Shown piece by piece: positions 473 to 11,454 of a DNA stretch of 51,757 nucleotides. Source of the DNA: Gammaproteobacteria bacterium. Its GTDB lineage: Bacteria > Pseudomonadota > Gammaproteobacteria > Pseudomonadales > Azotimanducaceae. Location of the stretch: contig VXUA01000082.1 of assembly GCA_009837185.1 (NCBI GenBank), positions 1 to 51,757 of the forward strand. The letters run 5' to 3'. The number at the start of each line of letters is the position of its first letter. Within the stretch, counting starts at the first letter, position 1. A model generated the notes under the pieces. The model made no database searches. It was not told the origin of the DNA and saw only the letters and a program-made list of their open reading frames with translations. Position numbers and translations under genes: made by a program.

Positions 473-527
473 ATGGATTTAGTTGACCGTTACTAAAAAG
501 TACCGACTCATGAGAGGTATTAACAAC

Positions 528-2534
528 ATGTACTCCAACAAGATCATCAGATTTTTCTCACTTTTTTGTGCCTTAGTGCTACTGGGTTGTGGAGATGCTC
601 CAGAGGAAGAGCAATCGGAGGTGCAACAATCTCTCCTTCAGCAATCCGATCAGATCGCCATGATGGGAGAAATGCAGTTTCCCGAAATCATCGGAGCTGA
701 CATTCCAGGCGCACCGAAGTTGCAACAACCAAGGTTGGTTATGGCTGGAGATGCGCCCGTCCTCACGGAAAAGCACGGTTTAGCAGCACCCGCACTATGG
801 GACTGGAACGGGGACGGTAAGCGAGACCTGCTTGTCGGCGAGTTTGAAACCAACTCTGGAGAGAACTTCCCAATGTCCGAGGAAGGTTCGACCGTGCGCG
901 TGTATCTCAACATCGGGAGCGACGGCAATCCTCAATTCGCAAATGAATTCCAGTGGGCGCGAGATACTGGTGGGACGATCATGGAAGTAGAACAATGGTG
1001 TTGCATTGGCTTTACTCCGTACTTCTACGACTTAGACGATGATGGCTATGGCGACATGATCACGGGTCAATACCATCCAGGCGAAGTTACCTGGTTTCGC
1101 GGAAACGAAGAAGGGTTTCTACCTGGCGTGAAACTGCCACAAGAAGGAAATCCAGAAGCTGCGTGGAACCCAATGTACCTTGAACTTATGGAGAATCCAG
1201 AAGAAGCTGTCATACCAGATCCAATTGAAACATTCGATTATTGGGTGTATTCTTCAGCGTCAATGGGGGACTTTGACGATGACGGAGATTACGATTTGAT
1301 TTTTGGTGGCAATGCCCTGAAAATCAGTGAGAATATTGGTACAAAAACTGAACCCAAGTTTGGACGACGAGAATTACTTTTGGATGTCAATGGCAAACCG
1401 TTAACTATTGGCAAAGTCGCAACTGACGAAGACGTTGAAGGCTGGGCACAAACGTCTACTACTTCCCTTGCCGGGGACTCTAAGACTTCGCCATATGTTG
1501 TGGATTGGGATCGCGACGGTGTCTTAGATCTTCTGGTGACCGGCAGCTATAGAAATGAAGGTGCCATGGCCGTAGCGTTCTTCAAAGGAGTCAAAGTTGA
1601 TGGCGAGCATCGCTTTCAACCAGCAGTCGACTTATTAGCAACCGAAAATGGTAGTAAAGCACTGCCTGGTAGCGGCCCGCGCTTGTATGTAGACGATTGG
1701 AACCTTGATGGTACTCCCGATCTCATTATCGGTGCGAGTGTTGCAACAGTGAATGGCGGTGAATTCTCTGACGAGTTGTCATGGGAATGGGAAGGTACGA
1801 ACAAAGTCGAAAGTGCTGGAAAAGATCCCGGACGTTACCCACCGAGAGAAAAACCGACACGTGAGGCGTTTCTAGCGCAATATGAGGACACTGGGGGTTT
1901 CTGGGAAACCGAGGAAGTGTTTGACGAATTCTTTCAAATGCAAGTGGACTACTGGCAACAAACCGTCGGTGTTCTTTACGACACGGGACGAGAACACTGG
2001 TTGACAATGCGCCACCAAGGGCGTATCTACGTAATGTTGGGTACAGAGGCGGACGATGCTGACACCGCTGATACCCAATCACCCACACAGGAAACCGACA
2101 AAAACGAGACTTCTCAGGCGGAAGAAGAGTCCAAGCTACCGGTGAAATTGGAGTTAGTCGTTCCCGAGAAAGTCGACCAAGGCTCCACCGCGGAAGTTTC
2201 TCTCGCCATTGATATAAAGGACGGGTGGTACATCTACGCGCCCACAGGGAAAAATGCCGAACAAGGCATGAAAGAGACTAAAGTGTCGTTTACCTTACCT
2301 GAGAGCATACAACAGTTAGGTAAGGTGAAGATGCCGATGCATCAGTTCAAAGGCTCTTACGATGTCTTTCGTGGCTCAGACCTCGCCGTGATCCAAAAAA
2401 TAGGAACGGAGGATAGCACTCCAGGTGAGTACACGATCGCGAGTCAGGTGACCTACCAAACCTGCAATGACGACATTTGTTTACCGCCGAAAACTGTGGA
2501 ACTTACTGCAGTGCTACTAGTAGCAAGTAATTAG
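528..2534 (+). CDS. FG-GAP/VCBS-repeat lipoprotein with C-terminal DsbD-N-like domain
   Basis: A 668-residue protein starting at ATG 528, chosen because GAGAGGT lies upstream at 512-518 and the following residues form a lipoprotein signal (hydrophobic FFSLFCALVLLG followed by Cys, lipobox LLGC). The body carries five DxDxDG-type FG-GAP/VCBS units, seen as WNGDGKRDLLVG, LDDDGYGDMITG, FDDDGDYDLIFGG, WDRDGVLDLLVTG and WNLDGTPDLIIG, which typically form calcium-binding beta-propeller blades. After an acidic, Thr/Glu-rich linker the last ~125 residues resemble the periplasmic N-terminal domain of DsbD, including YQTCNDDICLPP with a Cys pair (about C646 and C651). Likely membrane-anchored and facing the periplasm or outside. 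Alternative in-frame starts are ATG 510 and TTG 483. Its stop overlaps the convergent oxidase gene. The domain assignments are good; the function of the fusion is unknown. Confidence 0.85.
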   Translation: MYSNKIIRFFSLFCALVLLGCGDAPEEEQSEVQQSLLQQSDQIAMMGEMQFPEIIGADIPGAPKLQQPRLVMAGDAPVLTEKHGLAAPALWDWNGDGKRDLLVGEFETNSGENFPMSEEGSTVRVYLNIGSDGNPQFANEFQWARDTGGTIMEVEQWCCIGFTPYFYDLDDDGYGDMITGQYHPGEVTWFRGNEEGFLPGVKLPQEGNPEAAWNPMYLELMENPEEAVIPDPIETFDYWVYSSASMGDFDDDGDYDLIFGGNALKISENIGTKTEPKFGRRELLLDVNGKPLTIGKVATDEDVEGWAQTSTTSLAGDSKTSPYVVDWDRDGVLDLLVTGSYRNEGAMAVAFFKGVKVDGEHRFQPAVDLLATENGSKALPGSGPRLYVDDWNLDGTPDLIIGASVATVNGGEFSDELSWEWEGTNKVESAGKDPGRYPPREKPTREAFLAQYEDTGGFWETEEVFDEFFQMQVDYWQQTVGVLYDTGREHWLTMRHQGRIYVMLGTEADDADTADTQSPTQETDKNETSQAEEESKLPVKLELVVPEKVDQGSTAEVSLAIDIKDGWYIYAPTGKNAEQGMKETKVSFTLPESIQQLGKVKMPMHQFKGSYDVFRGSDLAVIQKIGTEDSTPGEYTIASQVTYQTCNDDICLPPKTVELTAVLLVASN

Positions 2535-3325
2535 TCAGGGGCTTCAGAGGCATCCTCGTCGAACAGATCCGACTCATTCGGATCCTTGTCGTTCTGGTTT
2601 TCCTCTGTAACTAGTTTTAACTGTGCGGTGGCGTACAAACTCTCGTATAGTTGTTTAAAGACATAGGCCCCTAAATTGAGGCCCTGATCGATGTAGTGCT
2701 GACGATCGGGATTATCCCAAGATGGTTCGATCACACGAAAGAATTCGTCGGCGTGCCGCTCATCCAGTTCGGAGTGTAAGGTATAGTGCGTCAAGTTGTC
2801 TCTTTCAACCCATTGACGACGCACGACACTTGCACCGATACTCGCCGATATCGAAGCGAAAGCAAGTTCAATAATGCCCATACACGCGATTCCTACCTCA
2901 AGTTCCGAAAGCACGCAGGAACCGGCTAATACCGTATTAAAAGCCCGAACTTCAGGCCACAGAGCAGATTTGTTACTCAAAGACTCAACTTCGCTCCCTA
3001 GCGATGTCAAAAACTTTACGAAAGTCGTTTGATGAAATTTACTTTCGGCAAACTCTCCGTGTTCTTCCACTACGTTTTTTAGAATGTCAAGTCGTTGCAT
3101 TGGATCAGGAAGACGACCTACCAAAGCACTCATCGGTCGGGGAAAGAATGTAACGGCGAAGAAAAATTGTTCTTGAGACAGCCGAAACATTTCTTTTGTC
3201 ATGCTACCGTCGGCTAGAGCGGTTAGATAACCGTTAGTCAGTACACCTGACTCTTTCAATATTTCTTCCGCACGATTCGTTACTTGTAACATGGGATAGT
3301 CGGTGGATTCACTAGTGGTGGTCAT
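2531..3325 (-). CDS. Haem-oxygenase-like diiron oxidase (HDO/CADD type, iron-containing redox enzyme)
   Basis: An all-helical protein of 264 residues from ATG 3325. From the upstream TTG at 3334 it would be 267, and I number residues from there. All six ligand positions of the haem-oxygenase-like diiron oxidase family are visible with CADD-like spacing: E94-x6-H101 in EFAESKFH, E156 in GIIELAF, and H187-x3-D191-x2-H194 in HSELDERH. Characterised members (UndA, SznF, BesC, CADD) use O2 to desaturate, cleave or N-oxygenate small amino- or fatty-acid substrates. The tail is acidic and low complexity. It is last in a three-gene operon: the TTG overlaps the stop of the acyltransferase (TTGA), and GGAGA at 3341-3337 is better spaced for the ATG. 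Substrate unknown. The family call is firm. Confidence 0.85.
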   Translation of the reverse strand: MTTTSESTDYPMLQVTNRAEEILKESGVLTNGYLTALADGSMTKEMFRLSQEQFFFAVTFFPRPMSALVGRLPDPMQRLDILKNVVEEHGEFAESKFHQTTFVKFLTSLGSEVESLSNKSALWPEVRAFNTVLAGSCVLSELEVGIACMGIIELAFASISASIGASVVRRQWVERDNLTHYTLHSELDERHADEFFRVIEPSWDNPDRQHYIDQGLNLGAYVFKQLYESLYATAQLKLVTEENQNDKDPNESDLFDEDASEAPD

Positions 3326-3330
3326 AGACT

Positions 3331-4302
3331 TCAAATCTCCGATGAATGAACCAAAAAAGGAAAGTCCTCGCTGAGGCTTACTCCGTATATGGACGCTGAA
3401 AAGGCATTATGGTCGATATTGTCTAAACGACTCTGTACCACTGCTAAGTGTGTTTCAGGTACAGTAACAAACAGATGAGTAAAGCCTGAGGAATGACTCC
3501 GAGTACAAGCATGTGGTATTAAACTAACAATGTGTTCCGGACTAACATAAGACAAGTACGTCAAATGTGCGTAACGATATTCTGTGTGCTGCCGGTCGTA
3601 CAACTGCTTAGCACGCCTAGTATCCTCTAGTAGAGCACTGGCATCAGTCTGTTCATCGACAAGCCACACTGGATCCTCCTGAGCGCGCAATAACGGGTTC
3701 ATCAATGCCCACGTTGGAACAGCAGTCGAAGTTTTACGGGGTTCGATCCCAGTTTCCGCTGAGCTAAGGTCGAGTGGATGCTCTGAAACTCTCGACTTCC
3801 ATGGAAAGTTTGTTGCTGTAGAAAAACTAAGTAAATGGACTCGTCCCGACCATGAGAATTGCGGGACTCCGACTCGTCCAGTGTATTGCTTCGGAGTCAC
3901 AGTCGTACCGTCCATGACGACGGAATAGGCTGATGTGATTTGTGGTCGTAACCAGAGAATCGCGGTCCGCGCTAAGCGATAGAGCAACGTACTACCTTGT
4001 AGTTCTTTCGTGATCTTTACGTCTACGACATAAGCGACTTGGGACGACTTCCCGTTAGGAGTCACCAAAGTACGGATAACGGCACTCAATACACCAACTA
4101 CCTCGTCTTCTCTCAGTGCTACAAAACAATAGGCATCGCCCATCGAACTAAAAAAGTCAGTGTAGAGGCTTGGATGTTCTATCCGGAATTCTTTTGATTC
4201 ACCCAAAGGATACCAAAACTGGTACTCAAAGTCTCGCAACATGGGACTGAATTCAGCGATCTCCTGAGCAGTCAATCGAAAGATTTGTGAAGTCTCAACC
4301 AA
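3331..4302 (-). CDS. GNAT-like N-acyltransferase
   Basis: A 323-residue protein starting at TTG 4302 behind CGAGAA. Residues about 55-125 look like the core of a GNAT domain: a strand CFVALREDEVVGVLSAV, then VAYVVDVKITKELQGSTL with the V..V.V....G...L pattern that forms the acyl-CoA pyrophosphate loop, then an amphipathic helix. The remaining 200 residues are not recognisable to me; they may be a second, degenerate acyltransferase-like half. It sits between the DUF3419 homologue (47 bp upstream) and the diiron oxidase (4-bp overlap downstream), so it probably acylates or otherwise tailors the product of the first enzyme. GNAT membership is moderately sure; substrate unknown. Confidence 0.65.
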   Translation of the reverse strand: MVETSQIFRLTAQEIAEFSPMLRDFEYQFWYPLGESKEFRIEHPSLYTDFFSSMGDAYCFVALREDEVVGVLSAVIRTLVTPNGKSSQVAYVVDVKITKELQGSTLLYRLARTAILWLRPQITSAYSVVMDGTTVTPKQYTGRVGVPQFSWSGRVHLLSFSTATNFPWKSRVSEHPLDLSSAETGIEPRKTSTAVPTWALMNPLLRAQEDPVWLVDEQTDASALLEDTRRAKQLYDRQHTEYRYAHLTYLSYVSPEHIVSLIPHACTRSHSSGFTHLFVTVPETHLAVVQSRLDNIDHNAFSASIYGVSLSEDFPFLVHSSEI

Positions 4303-4349
4303 TGGTGTTCTCGAATGTTTGCCGTATCAAAGTATGGTTCTGTTGTGAG

Positions 4350-5507
4350 TCATAACCTCCGACCGCAATGTACCCCACGATAAAAGTAACTTAGGTCCTC
4401 TCGATGTAAATTGTCGGATTCCTCATCTAACCATGTGAAGTGCTCACCGAGTGCCCGAATAGGTAAATCTGAATTAAGTTGTCGAATCAGGGTGTATCCC
4501 TTTGGTTTCAATCGATTCCAAGTTAATTCTAACAATGCATGAGCCTCGTCTACAGTCAGCCAATCTAATACATTTGAGAGGTGAATATAGTCAAATCGGA
4601 CATCGGTCTTTGCTAAGTAATCCTGCATTGTTTCGGCTTCAAAGTGAATATTCGCCGAAACTTCCTGGCGTGGTTGGCTGAGCCATCGTGCGATGGGTTT
4701 TATAGTCTCGCAAGATGCCAGAACCTGCCAAAGGAAGTGATTGGTACTAGCGTTAAAACAATGCAAGGCATGCACCGTTCTCTGGAAAAAGTGAGTAGAA
4801 AAGGACATCACTGGATTTTGAGTCGCGGTTTCTCCAAAAAGTGCGACAAGGTTTTCGATGCACATCACTTGATCGAAACTCTTGAGTAATAACGCTACAA
4901 AGTCGGGGTGAGTTTGAAGCCACTTTGCTTGATCACTTGAGTTCTCGAGTTGCAGAAGGTCGAGCACTGAATCAGGAAACGTCGCGACAGATTTGCTGAC
5001 CTGCTGAAATACTGATTCGTATCGGCCAGCATAATCAAGACCGACCTCTAAGATATGATCTGTTGGACCAAAACTACTCATAGGATCACAAGTTTCTTCA
5101 CAAATAAGATGCAATTGACGTTCCCTCGCTTCGAGGGAGAGATCCGTATGTCCAAGAAACTTTAGACGGTCGTCGGGGTCCTGACCTCTCAGTAACGCGA
5201 GTTTGACTCGGCACAAAGCCAGCTGCGCTGGATTTGGATCGACAACGTGAATCGTTCGTACATTAGGCATACTGGCGAGCACCGCGAGCGTACATCCACC
5301 AGAACCAACAATTAAAAGGGACGCGTCTCTAGAGAGCTGTTCAACTACCCAAGCATCTAGACCGGGATCTTCGCGAACTTGTGCGAAGCGAAGTGGAAGA
5401 TCTAAGGATTGATATACCCAGTCTGGAAATTGGTTCACAGATAGAAACGCACAGGTTGGCAGGTAGTACGGAGATTTTAAATCGAGGTTTTCGTACAACA
5501 AACACAC
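4350..5507 (-). CDS. DUF3419/BtaA-like S-adenosylmethionine-dependent 3-amino-3-carboxypropyl transferase homologue
   Basis: A 385-residue protein starting at GTG 5507; GGAAGG lies 11 bp upstream and an in-frame TAG at 5540-5538 excludes longer versions. Residues 41-51 (FAQVREDPGLD) match the (Y/F)xQxxEDPxxD signature of the DUF3419 family, followed by a Rossmann SAM-binding region: LLIVGSGGC (64-72) and VVDPNPAQLAL (88-98). The C-terminal part HLSNVLDWLT...RPxxKG-like and ending in FYRGV is also typical. The characterised member BtaA moves the 3-amino-3-carboxypropyl group of SAM to diacylglycerol in betaine-lipid synthesis. No BtaB-like N-methyltransferase is adjacent, so the product is unlikely to be an ordinary betaine lipid. 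First gene of the operon with the GNAT and the diiron oxidase. Confidence 0.8.
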   Translation of the reverse strand: MCLLYENLDLKSPYYLPTCAFLSVNQFPDWVYQSLDLPLRFAQVREDPGLDAWVVEQLSRDASLLIVGSGGCTLAVLASMPNVRTIHVVDPNPAQLALCRVKLALLRGQDPDDRLKFLGHTDLSLEARERQLHLICEETCDPMSSFGPTDHILEVGLDYAGRYESVFQQVSKSVATFPDSVLDLLQLENSSDQAKWLQTHPDFVALLLKSFDQVMCIENLVALFGETATQNPVMSFSTHFFQRTVHALHCFNASTNHFLWQVLASCETIKPIARWLSQPRQEVSANIHFEAETMQDYLAKTDVRFDYIHLSNVLDWLTVDEAHALLELTWNRLKPKGYTLIRQLNSDLPIRALGEHFTWLDEESDNLHREDLSYFYRGVHCGRRL

Positions 5508-5590: not shown

Positions 5591-5666
5591 GGCCAGGTAG
5601 CTCAGTCGGTAGAGCAGTGGACTGAAAATCCTCGTGTCGGCAGTTCAATTCTGCCCCTGGCCACCA
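5591..5666 (+). tRNA. tRNA-Phe (GAA)
   Basis: A 76-nt cloverleaf with acceptor GGCCAGG/CCTGGCC, D-arm GCTC/GAGC, anticodon loop CTGAAAA (anticodon GAA at 5624-5626), T-arm GGCAG/CTGCC with loop TTCAATT, and an encoded CCA end. The anticodon stem GTGGA/TCCTC has a T28-T42 mismatch. Its 5' end lies 83 bp from the start of the divergent DUF3419 gene. Confidence 0.96.
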
Positions 5667-5731
5667 TTGTTTTCCACAATTTAGTTGAGTGACAAATCGT
5701 TGTCTTTAGGGTACGTATTCTCGTGCTAGTT

Positions 5732-6181
5732 ATGTCTTTGTTAACAGTAAAGAATATTCGTTGGCTTGCTTCAAGCACCCTCATTGTCTTGCTAGCAAGC
5801 TGTGGTCAGAGTCCGACAAAAGTTTCTGTCGACGGCGCGTGGGTAAGAACTCCCTTACCCTCGAAAACAACTACTGCGGCTTATGTGCTGATCAAGAATC
5901 TCACTAAAGATGCAATCACTCTAACTTCAGCCGATTCGGAAACTATCGGAGCTATTGAGTTCCACAAGTCGGAAACTAGAGATGGTAGGCACCGAATGGT
6001 AAAGTTAGACTCGTTAGAGATTCCCGCTAAAGACACCTTGAAGCTAGAACCCGGGGGGCTACATCTGATGTTGTTCCGTATTAAAGAAGTGGAGGAAGAT
6101 CGACACGTGATTAACTTTCATGCTGAGGGTGATCTCACTTTTCAAGCCACTTTTGAAATACTTGATGACGCTCCGGAATAA
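5732..6181 (+). CDS. PCuAC-type periplasmic copper chaperone (lipoprotein)
   Basis: A 149-residue protein from ATG 5732 (a GTG at 5723 is in frame). The N-terminus is a lipoprotein signal ending LIVLLASC. The mature part shows the complete copper-binding motif of PCuAC/DUF461: H-x10-M-x21-H-x-M, seen as FHKSETRDGRHRM followed 21 residues later by HLM. Such proteins deliver Cu(I) to the CuA or CuB centres of cytochrome oxidase. The usual partner (Sco or a CopC/YcnJ protein) is not adjacent; the gene lies alone between tRNA-Phe and the pyrophosphatase. Confidence 0.88.
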   Translation: MSLLTVKNIRWLASSTLIVLLASCGQSPTKVSVDGAWVRTPLPSKTTTAAYVLIKNLTKDAITLTSADSETIGAIEFHKSETRDGRHRMVKLDSLEIPAKDTLKLEPGGLHLMLFRIKEVEEDRHVINFHAEGDLTFQATFEILDDAPE

Positions 6182-9658: not shown

Positions 9659-10276
9659 ATGAGCCAAAAATTCCATCAAATGTTACTACCAATTTTTAGG
9701 TTGTTGCTCTTTCGAGGCTCACCTGTTGATGTGAACGGAAGTCTCGCCACGATCGCCACGTTCTCGATTCTCTTGGTAGCTCTTGTGTGGTTAACGTTAC
9801 CGTCAGCCGGTTCAACTAACTTGAACCCAGAAGTAGTGTCAGATTTGCGAAAGGTTCTTTTGGTCATCCCGATCATTACCTACGCATTTGCTGCACTAAT
9901 GATTTTCACCGTACTCAACATCCGGAAATTTAACGACCGCTTTCCAAAAACGATCTCAGCATGTTTAGGCTTATTGCTCTTGTTCCAAGCCGGCATGTTT
10001 TTACTTTCTATATTGTCAATGTTCTTCGGATCGAGCTTACGTTCCATATTTGGAGCAGTCCAAATTGCAATGTTTTGTTGGTTCATCGGCGCAGGAGGTC
10101 AAGTCTTCCTACATGCATTTAGCCTAAAGCTCTATCAAGGCATCCTTGCTACGATCGCGATCATTTTGGTCTCCTCTCTTATTGCAGGGATCATTACCGG
10201 AATCGTATTACCGGAGGAGGTAGGGACATATGCTCAATTACAAGACCAGCTATTCCAACTTCGTTCGTCAGAGTAG
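9659..10276 (+). CDS. Small membrane protein, first of three tandem paralogues
   Basis: 205 residues with five hydrophobic segments. A short N-terminal amphipathic piece RLLLFRGSP is followed by TM stretches around residues 30-50, 67-90, 99-122, 130-150 and 157-180. The order of segments, the (L/C)xxFR(G/S)S entry motif and the ALxxKxYQG-like motif before the last helix are shared with the next two genes. No family is recognised with confidence; it resembles the general topology of Yip1-type membrane proteins. It begins 41 bp from the divergent phosphofructokinase start. Confidence 0.75.
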   Translation: MSQKFHQMLLPIFRLLLFRGSPVDVNGSLATIATFSILLVALVWLTLPSAGSTNLNPEVVSDLRKVLLVIPIITYAFAALMIFTVLNIRKFNDRFPKTISACLGLLLLFQAGMFLLSILSMFFGSSLRSIFGAVQIAMFCWFIGAGGQVFLHAFSLKLYQGILATIAIILVSSLIAGIITGIVLPEEVGTYAQLQDQLFQLRSSE

Positions 10277-10310
10277 ATGCGTGATTCAGTACTTAACAGC
10301 GACAAATTAA

Positions 10311-10889
10311 ATGTTGCGAGCCACTATGACATGCTTTCAGTTTTGTATCTTTCGAGGTTCGGTACGAACCGTCAAGGGAGACAATGCTACGATCGTCACG
10401 TTCTTCCTATTGCTAATACTGCTGGAACTGTATCCGTTAGTGGCTCTTTTTCCACACTCGGAAATAGCCTCTCAGTTGTTGCAACATCGTACTGCCATAT
10501 GGCTGCTGGCGTTAGTGTGGCATGGGTTAGCAATCGTGATGATATTCGCATTGTTGAAGATGAAACACTCAATGAGCCAATTTCGTGGAACTCTTGCGTC
10601 GTATTTCGGTGTGTTTTTGTTGTTCCAGCTTGTTGGGTTGCTGTTGCAACTACTCAGTCAGGGGACTCTCCCCTCGGGGATACGGACTCTCGTTTTGATT
10701 GTGTGGCTTTCTTGGAGTTGCTGCGTTGTCGGGTACGTGTTTGGAAGCGCTCTAAGCATCAAGTTCTACCAAGGTGTCGTATTGGCGTTCCTTATCAACG
10801 TAGTCTCCTATGTCTTAGCGTTTGTTGTGATTGGATCGATTCTCTCGAACGAACTACGCGAGATCTTTCTCCAGCAAGTTCGTTCTTGA
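10311..10889 (+). CDS. Small membrane protein, second of three tandem paralogues
   Basis: 192 residues from ATG 10311 (ATG 10326 also possible). FCIFRGSVRTVKG corresponds to LLLFRGSPVDVNG of the preceding protein, and ALSIKFYQGVV to FSLKLYQGIL. Five hydrophobic segments. There is a 34-bp gap to the upstream gene. A longer open frame, 10277-10912, overlaps this gene in another phase, but its product is Cys/Arg-rich and not membrane-like, so I reject it. Function unknown. Confidence 0.7.
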   Translation: MLRATMTCFQFCIFRGSVRTVKGDNATIVTFFLLLILLELYPLVALFPHSEIASQLLQHRTAIWLLALVWHGLAIVMIFALLKMKHSMSQFRGTLASYFGVFLLFQLVGLLLQLLSQGTLPSGIRTLVLIVWLSWSCCVVGYVFGSALSIKFYQGVVLAFLINVVSYVLAFVVIGSILSNELREIFLQQVRS

Positions 10890-10920
10890 ACAACAGAAAG
10901 GACATCTCGTAGACGTTTCC

Positions 10921-11454
10921 GTGGCCGGAGCATACTTAACTTACATCCGACTCTGCTTCTTTCGAAGTAGCGTAAGAAACGCCAGCGCAAGCACTGCCAC
11001 TCTCGTGCTGGTCTGCGTGTTGTTCGCAGTCACATCAATCCTTCGTTTTGAGTTTTCGCCAGAAGCAAATGATCCAGTCAATTATTACAGCAGAATCTTG
11101 GTGGTTTTTGTTGTGTTCAACGTGTTGATGTATCTTACCTTAGTCTTTAAGAAGAGTCAGAATCGCTACCGCAAGGTGCTATCCACGTTCATCGGAACAC
11201 GGACTCTGATTGATCTATTCATGATCTTAATTCTGCTAGTATCTCCAGCCGATGAGCAACTGCGTATGGTTTTGTTTGCTGTCGTGGCTATCTGGAGAAT
11301 GTGTATAGTAGGGTATATTCTTAAAGACGCGCTCAATGTCTTGTTACCGACTGGTATTCTTATTTCTGTAGCGTTCACGATTATTTCAATAGAGGTAGCA
11401 AATATGTCTGTTGGATTTCCTGTGCTACCCGAAGAAGTACCCACTAGTGAATAA
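10921..11454 (+). CDS. Small membrane protein, third of three tandem paralogues
   Basis: 177 residues from GTG 10921, chosen because it puts the conserved LCFFRSSVRNA motif at the same distance from the start as in its neighbours; the frame is open from ATG 10831, which would overlap the upstream gene by 59 bp. Five hydrophobic segments, with ALNVLLPTGI replacing the K-x-YQG motif of the other two. The last 8 bp overlap the GTG of mpl, so it is probably translationally coupled to it. It is the most diverged of the three. Confidence 0.65.
   Translation: MAGAYLTYIRLCFFRSSVRNASASTATLVLVCVLFAVTSILRFEFSPEANDPVNYYSRILVVFVVFNVLMYLTLVFKKSQNRYRKVLSTFIGTRTLIDLFMILILLVSPADEQLRMVLFAVVAIWRMCIVGYILKDALNVLLPTGILISVAFTIISIEVANMSVGFPVLPEEVPTSE

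Follow-up and report, generated by a model that had tools for sequence, protein, structure and literature searches.

Among the described systems closest to the locus presented here, the DUF3419 protein BtaA serves the synthesis of betaine lipids, while N-myristoyltransferase (NMT), a tandem GNAT protein, carries its catalytic carboxylate at the C-terminus. In OlsB-type synthesis, N-acylation of an amino acid is a route to aminolipids, as described in PMC11631085, and haem-oxygenase-like diiron oxidases (HDOs) include N-oxygenases and serve the synthesis of metal-binding metabolites (PMC13108848). In the stretch of DNA analysed here (the window: 51,757 nucleotides, contig VXUA01000082.1 of assembly GCA_009837185.1, a gammaproteobacterium of the Azotimanducaceae), genes for a DUF3419 protein, a GNAT-like protein and an HDO follow each other in this order on the minus strand (2531-5507 with the earlier DUF3419 start):

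4350..5438, minus strand: DUF3419 protein, 362 amino acids from GTG 5438 (alternative start GTG 5507)
3331..4302, minus strand: middle gene, a tandem-GNAT, NMT-like predicted N-acyltransferase, 323 amino acids
2531..3325, minus strand: HDO, 264 amino acids from ATG 3325 (alternative start TTG 3334)

This cassette is real, widespread and, within the literature searched, undescribed; its families are known, and no account of their combination was found. The first-pass annotation of the window named no characterised pathway with this trio, and literature searches on DUF3419, on HDO neighbourhoods and on combinations likewise gave no description of it among the matches listed, subscription papers mostly and bioRxiv wholly lying outside their coverage. 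Because the three genes stay together through five phyla and are sometimes partly fused, they probably form one small pathway. A more specific reading, whose reactions we infer from the observed co-location, fusion, modelled folds and conserved ligands and C-termini, is that aminocarboxypropyl transfer from S-adenosylmethionine (SAM), N-acylation and oxidation by O2 would together yield an undescribed amino-acid amphiphile; we regard the case for and against it as evenly balanced.

The question raised at first pass whether the three genes co-occur only in this genome was answered by neighbourhood searches, which found the trio in five phyla and partly fused in two genomes. When genome contigs were searched with a profile of the DUF3419 alignment, 11 loci were found, each of which has a GNAT and an HDO gene next to it; eight come from the genus of the window and three from Planctomycetota, Verrucomicrobiae and Chlamydiae. 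Whole-genome searches per phylum, for which DUF3419 alignment A2 was used, gave matches in 37 of 387 Verrucomicrobiota genomes (5 of trio type), 30 of 232 Chlamydiota genomes (6 of trio type), 66 of 392 Planctomycetota genomes, with scores in a graded tail, and 32 of 398 Pseudomonadota genomes, where the window's own match is the sole one of trio type. Of the best-scoring loci, 9 from Verrucomicrobiota and Chlamydiota and 17 from Planctomycetota were examined, together with 6 and 14 others as controls, i.e. high-scoring non-trio DUF3419 matches chosen by hand and not at random. All three genes lie on one strand at 30 of the 38 scanned trio-clade loci, while a GNAT or HDO partner was found at none of the 20 control loci; with the all-or-none pattern within the genus described below, this rules out a chance neighbourhood. 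Adding genome G010 and a plasmid locus (L234), the complete trio is present at 32 of 40 loci of the DUF3419 clade, distributed over five phyla that include chlamydial relatives and a mycobacterial plasmid.

Within the genus, queries with the HDO, DUF3419 and GNAT proteins match the identical 10 of 18 genomes, where the genes are adjacent and in the same order, the lowest identities being 54%, 39% and 36%, respectively. In the other 8 genomes, no trio protein has a match at E <= 0.001; since 3 of these 8 are less than 90% complete, some absences could be assembly gaps. The cassette lies beside a tRNA-Phe gene in loci L037 and L039-L041, and elsewhere, behind an RND pump gene, in a second subclade (L042-L044). 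Hence, the genus has the cassette in no fewer than two locations.

Gene order varies among the 30 complete loci, with DUF-GNAT-HDO in 18, GNAT-DUF-HDO in 5, DUF-HDO-GNAT in 4 and HDO-DUF-GNAT in 3; in L201 the HDO is positioned after the GNAT. In two Chlamydiota loci (L115, L116), DUF3419 and HDO are fused in one 613-residue frame, confirmed by Pfam for L115, which suggests that these two enzymes act on consecutive intermediates. Further cassettes hold an additional gene, namely a desaturase gene in L111 and L112 and an open reading frame of 504 amino acids without Pfam match in L191. Four loci are incomplete, with a contig end falling inside the cassette (L119, L188, L198, L200), and the contig of L189 starts inside DUF3419, no partner being found in the 3 kb that follow. 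Two Planctomycetota loci (L192, L193) carry DUF3419 and GNAT with no recognisable HDO within about 5 kb on either side and are possibly a two-gene variant, and L194, on a very long branch, has DUF3419 with neither partner.

The association also holds in reverse. Strong matches to the trio HDO were obtained in 5 of 176 Chlamydiota and 4 of 298 Verrucomicrobiota genomes, all of them trio genomes; the Verrucomicrobiota trio genome G377 is missing from these matches and was perhaps not among the 298 sampled. Ten further Chlamydiota genomes gave weak matches of at most 55 bits, presumably to other HDOs. Additionally, the distance matrices of the three proteins, computed for 27 of the 30 complete loci (L190, L196 and L201 excluded), correlate with r 0.83-0.89, or 0.39-0.67 for pairs below 50% identity. 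Among 72,556 plasmid records a single one matches, that of Mycobacterium riyadhense (NZ_OY970457.1, L234), which adds the fifth phylum and has the order DUF3419, HDO, GNAT, followed by an MMPL transporter gene. On this plasmid, SAM motif I marks the start of the annotated DUF3419 gene; the cassette with its MMPL gene is flanked by PE/PPE genes and by tyrosine recombinases. A phage origin was rejected, as a search of 50,697 phage records with the DUF3419 protein found nothing.

Turning to the individual enzymes, the family calls of the first-pass annotation are borne out by Pfam for two of them. The DUF3419 protein of the window matches PF11899 with 75.7 bits (gathering cut-off 28.2, E 5e-21), and its AlphaFold2 model (predicted local distance difference test, pLDDT, 90.7) displays a class I SAM-methyltransferase fold with a large helical insert, while sequence-only PDB searches gave no significant relative. 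The support for the predicted SAM binding comes from this modelled fold and from conserved motifs. Like BtaA, the trio clade belongs to DUF3419 and keeps E23-D24, G48, D67, K79, G138, F144, R319, D348 and Y353; unlike BtaA-type controls, it carries the switches W22R, Y18F, N50T, H72Q, G141E and D289N, and its members have GNAT and HDO partners. In a tree, 33 trio-clade proteins (of 38 loci; L119, L189, L190, L198 and L200, partial or split, were dropped) separate from 20 others including BtaA-type proteins with support of 100/99, a separation that the bit score alone fails to give at 50-70 bits. A further well-supported DUF3419 clade (100/100) comprises three Chlamydiota proteins (L122, L123, L124), which are not of trio type, do not fall with the BtaA-type controls and have no GNAT or HDO beside them. 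Where neighbours of BtaA-type controls were tested (8 of 20), 7 of 8 are methyltransferases. As had been pointed out at first pass, no BtaB methyltransferase adjoins the window trio, the search having covered the trio's neighbours and not the rest of the genome; with the tree, this missing neighbour rules out a standard BtaA betaine lipid. The protein is predicted to be a 3-amino-3-carboxypropyl transferase that depends on SAM and belongs to a clade separate from BtaA; it would move the aminocarboxypropyl unit to an acceptor, the simplest guess being a lipid alcohol such as diacylglycerol.

The clade-specific W22R, G141E and D289N suggest an altered acceptor site and would also suit a SAM-cyclising protein that forms azetidine-2-carboxylate or homoserine lactone, the ring then being acylated by the GNAT and the resulting signal-like N-acyl compound trimmed or oxidised by the HDO. 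SAM plus an acyl donor is, moreover, the substrate pair of acyl-homoserine-lactone synthases, and SAM cyclases with a methyltransferase fold exist (PMC10491745). Against such a signal, the sole regulators among the Pfam-scanned neighbours are a TetR (L045) and an AraC protein (L111). The DUF3419 family is, to our knowledge, known solely for intermolecular transfer, as in BtaA, and we consider cyclisation improbable compared with the transfer proposed above.

For the middle protein of the window, Pfam matches to GNAT families stay below the cut-offs (18.6 vs 25 and 17.7 vs 20.7 bits), so that it is the modelled fold that supports its assignment as a GNAT, proposed at first pass. The homologue from M. 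riyadhense does pass PF00583, with 21.5 vs 20.7 bits. Sequence-only PDB searches gave no significant relative here either. Its model (pLDDT 84.4) matches tandem GNATs including NMT by Foldseek and VIA-align, and overlays NMT end to end with the C-terminus at the same place. All 35 complete C-termini end in Ile; the conserved C-terminal motif is -[S/T]-x-[E/D/Q]-Ile. Unlike NMT, the trio proteins are bacterial, share 8-12% identity with it, show no NMT family match when 12 of them are scanned with hmmscan (E <= 0.01) and presumably do not have a protein as acceptor. The proposed pathway resembles OlsB-type aminolipid synthesis in N-acylating an amino acid and differs from it in that PF13444 has no match in the window protein or the 12 members scanned, the amino-acid part would come from SAM, and an oxidation by O2 is added. 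The first-pass guess of an aminocarboxypropylated, acylated and O2-oxidised lipid or small molecule fits these findings, and of the N- or O-acylation that it allowed, the former is favoured by the NMT-like tandem-GNAT build of the acyltransferase. We judge N-acyl transfer by this enzyme to be likely and a long chain as the acyl group slightly better supported than not. The enzyme would acylate the amine, probably with a fatty acyl taken from a thioester, and the C-terminal Ile carboxylate may act as general base, given the fold and its strict conservation.

The nearest tandem GNATs also include entries named acetyltransferases, and most trio proteins checked, the window's included, are without hydrophobic N-terminal segments. 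Both points would suit a small molecule that is soluble rather than lipid and carries a short acyl group; such a product is nevertheless quite unlikely in view of the NMT-like fold and of the FA_desaturase, PAP2, VTT and MmpL genes that adjoin some loci. Lipid anchoring via N-terminal helices was considered and set aside, since hydrophobic N-termini among 22 loci were limited to the DUF3419-HDO fusion L115, more weakly the fusion L116, and the GNAT of L047, and these were not taken as strong evidence.

The third protein matches PF14518 (Haem_oxygenas_2) with 63.9 bits (cut-off 28.9, E 2e-17), and very probably performs O2 chemistry. E88 and H98 are present in 31 of 31 trio HDOs, and E153, H184, D188 and H191 in 30 of 31, the remaining row having a gap there; these residues are the predicted metal ligands. 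Of the 3H/3C and 3H/4C sets described in PMC13108848, the former is expected, since E91 and E94, located between E88 and H98, vary. At such a diiron (or Mn/Fe) site the enzyme would activate O2 and oxidise the aminocarboxypropyl-derived product, for instance by desaturation, C-C cleavage/decarboxylation or N-oxygenation. The nearest solved chains are BesC and 4-aminobenzoate synthases of the CADD type, which share the HDO family and 3H/3C-type ligands with the trio HDO, although the latter adjoins DUF3419 and GNAT genes and is twice fused to DUF3419. CADD-type chains being the best PDB matches (E 3e-12 with a profile), a role in p-aminobenzoate/folate synthesis might be suspected. In CADD the sacrificed substrate tyrosine is Tyr27 (PMC11965152); by alignment mapping, this position holds Phe in 20, Leu in 10 and Val in 1 of the 31 trio HDOs. 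Likewise, conservation of a lysine is lacking around the Lys152 position (no column has Lys in more than 7 of 31), and the NCBIfam CADD model scores 48.4 against a cut-off of 200. CADD-type synthesis was therefore rejected at the Tyr27 position, and a p-aminobenzoate function is extremely improbable.

Further hints on the product come from neighbouring genes, which were scanned selectively (30 proteins, some not direct neighbours), so that hints of lipids or export carry no background rate. An FA_desaturase gene lies within the cassette of L111 and L112 (Verrucomicrobiota) and just before that of L187 (Planctomycetota), there sharing one open reading frame with PAP2; a VTT-domain gene precedes the cassette of L196. 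RND pump genes precede L042-L044, with the HlyD partner checked in L042 only and an open reading frame without Pfam match lying between in L043. The transporter after the M. riyadhense trio is MmpL4-like (1538 bits to the PDB entry 'Siderophore exporter MmpL4'; TIGR00833 above cut-off). On account of these neighbours an exportable amphiphile is favoured. We take the product most probably to be amphiphilic, an N-acyl amino-acid lipid or a lipid-like metabolite, with export in some lineages. No desaturase, PAP2, VTT, RND or MmpL4-like gene, however, adjoins the window trio itself.

The same pumps could export a hydroxamate metallophore or antibiotic, for which the HDO would N-hydroxylate the aminocarboxypropyl amine and the GNAT acylate the hydroxylamine, as happens in the mycobactin and aerobactin pathways after other N-oxygenases have acted. 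Both the 'siderophore exporter' name of the MmpL4 relative and the RND pump before L042-L044 point this way, as do the N-oxygenases within the HDO family and the part that HDOs take in metal-binding metabolites (PMC13108848). The trio HDOs, in which E91 and E94 vary, do not show the extra carboxylate that marks 3H/4C N-oxygenases. N-oxygenases of the 3H/3C type do exist (HrmI), but pumps of the MmpL4 and RND types export a wide range of cargoes, and a secreted hydroxamate appears fairly unlikely beside the N-acyl amino-acid amphiphile.

If that amphiphile is correct, the trio would provide a second physiological use of DUF3419, NMT-style C-terminal catalysis in bacteria and a new HDO reaction. 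That it defines a new bacterial amphiphile class, with a SAM-derived head group, NMT-type fatty acylation via a C-terminal carboxylate and a diiron-oxidase remodelling new for such lipids, is put forward tentatively, with the balance somewhat against it. In its varied orders, fusions and unrelated sites across five phyla, the cassette resembles a ready-made minimal pathway for a compound to which the searches gave no name, small enough for expression in a laboratory strain and for solving its product.

In the window itself, the three minus-strand open reading frames with junctions of 47 bp and 4 bp are seen exactly as annotated at first pass. By homology, GTG 5438 is a better candidate than GTG 5507 for the DUF3419 start; the reading frame of L040 opens just three codons ahead of the ATG matching GTG 5438. 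The HDO probably starts at ATG 3325 rather than TTG 3334, its Met being aligned in close relatives, which turns the 4-bp overlap with the GNAT gene into a 5-bp gap. The source genome has one DUF3419 match in total, and the protein shares 99% identity with its counterpart in L037 ('OMG group bacterium isolate Plut_88873'). Just upstream of the trio lies:

5591-5666, plus strand: tRNA-Phe

This tRNA gene is retained beside the trio in L037, L039, L040 and L041 (4 of 4 scanned of this group, L038 being outside the scan) and was not seen at L042-L047 in the tRNA scan; it was therefore rejected as a functional part of the cassette. On the other side lies a convergent gene (483-2534, plus strand) that encodes FG-GAP repeats and a DsbD N-terminal domain; its 3' end and the end of the HDO gene share 4 bp. 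Past the tRNA, a PCu(A)C copper chaperone-like gene is found at 5723-6181 (plus strand), and further on three successive open reading frames of about 190-207 amino acids, hydrophobic by eye, occupy 9659-11454 (plus strand) and have counterparts in L037, L039 and L041.
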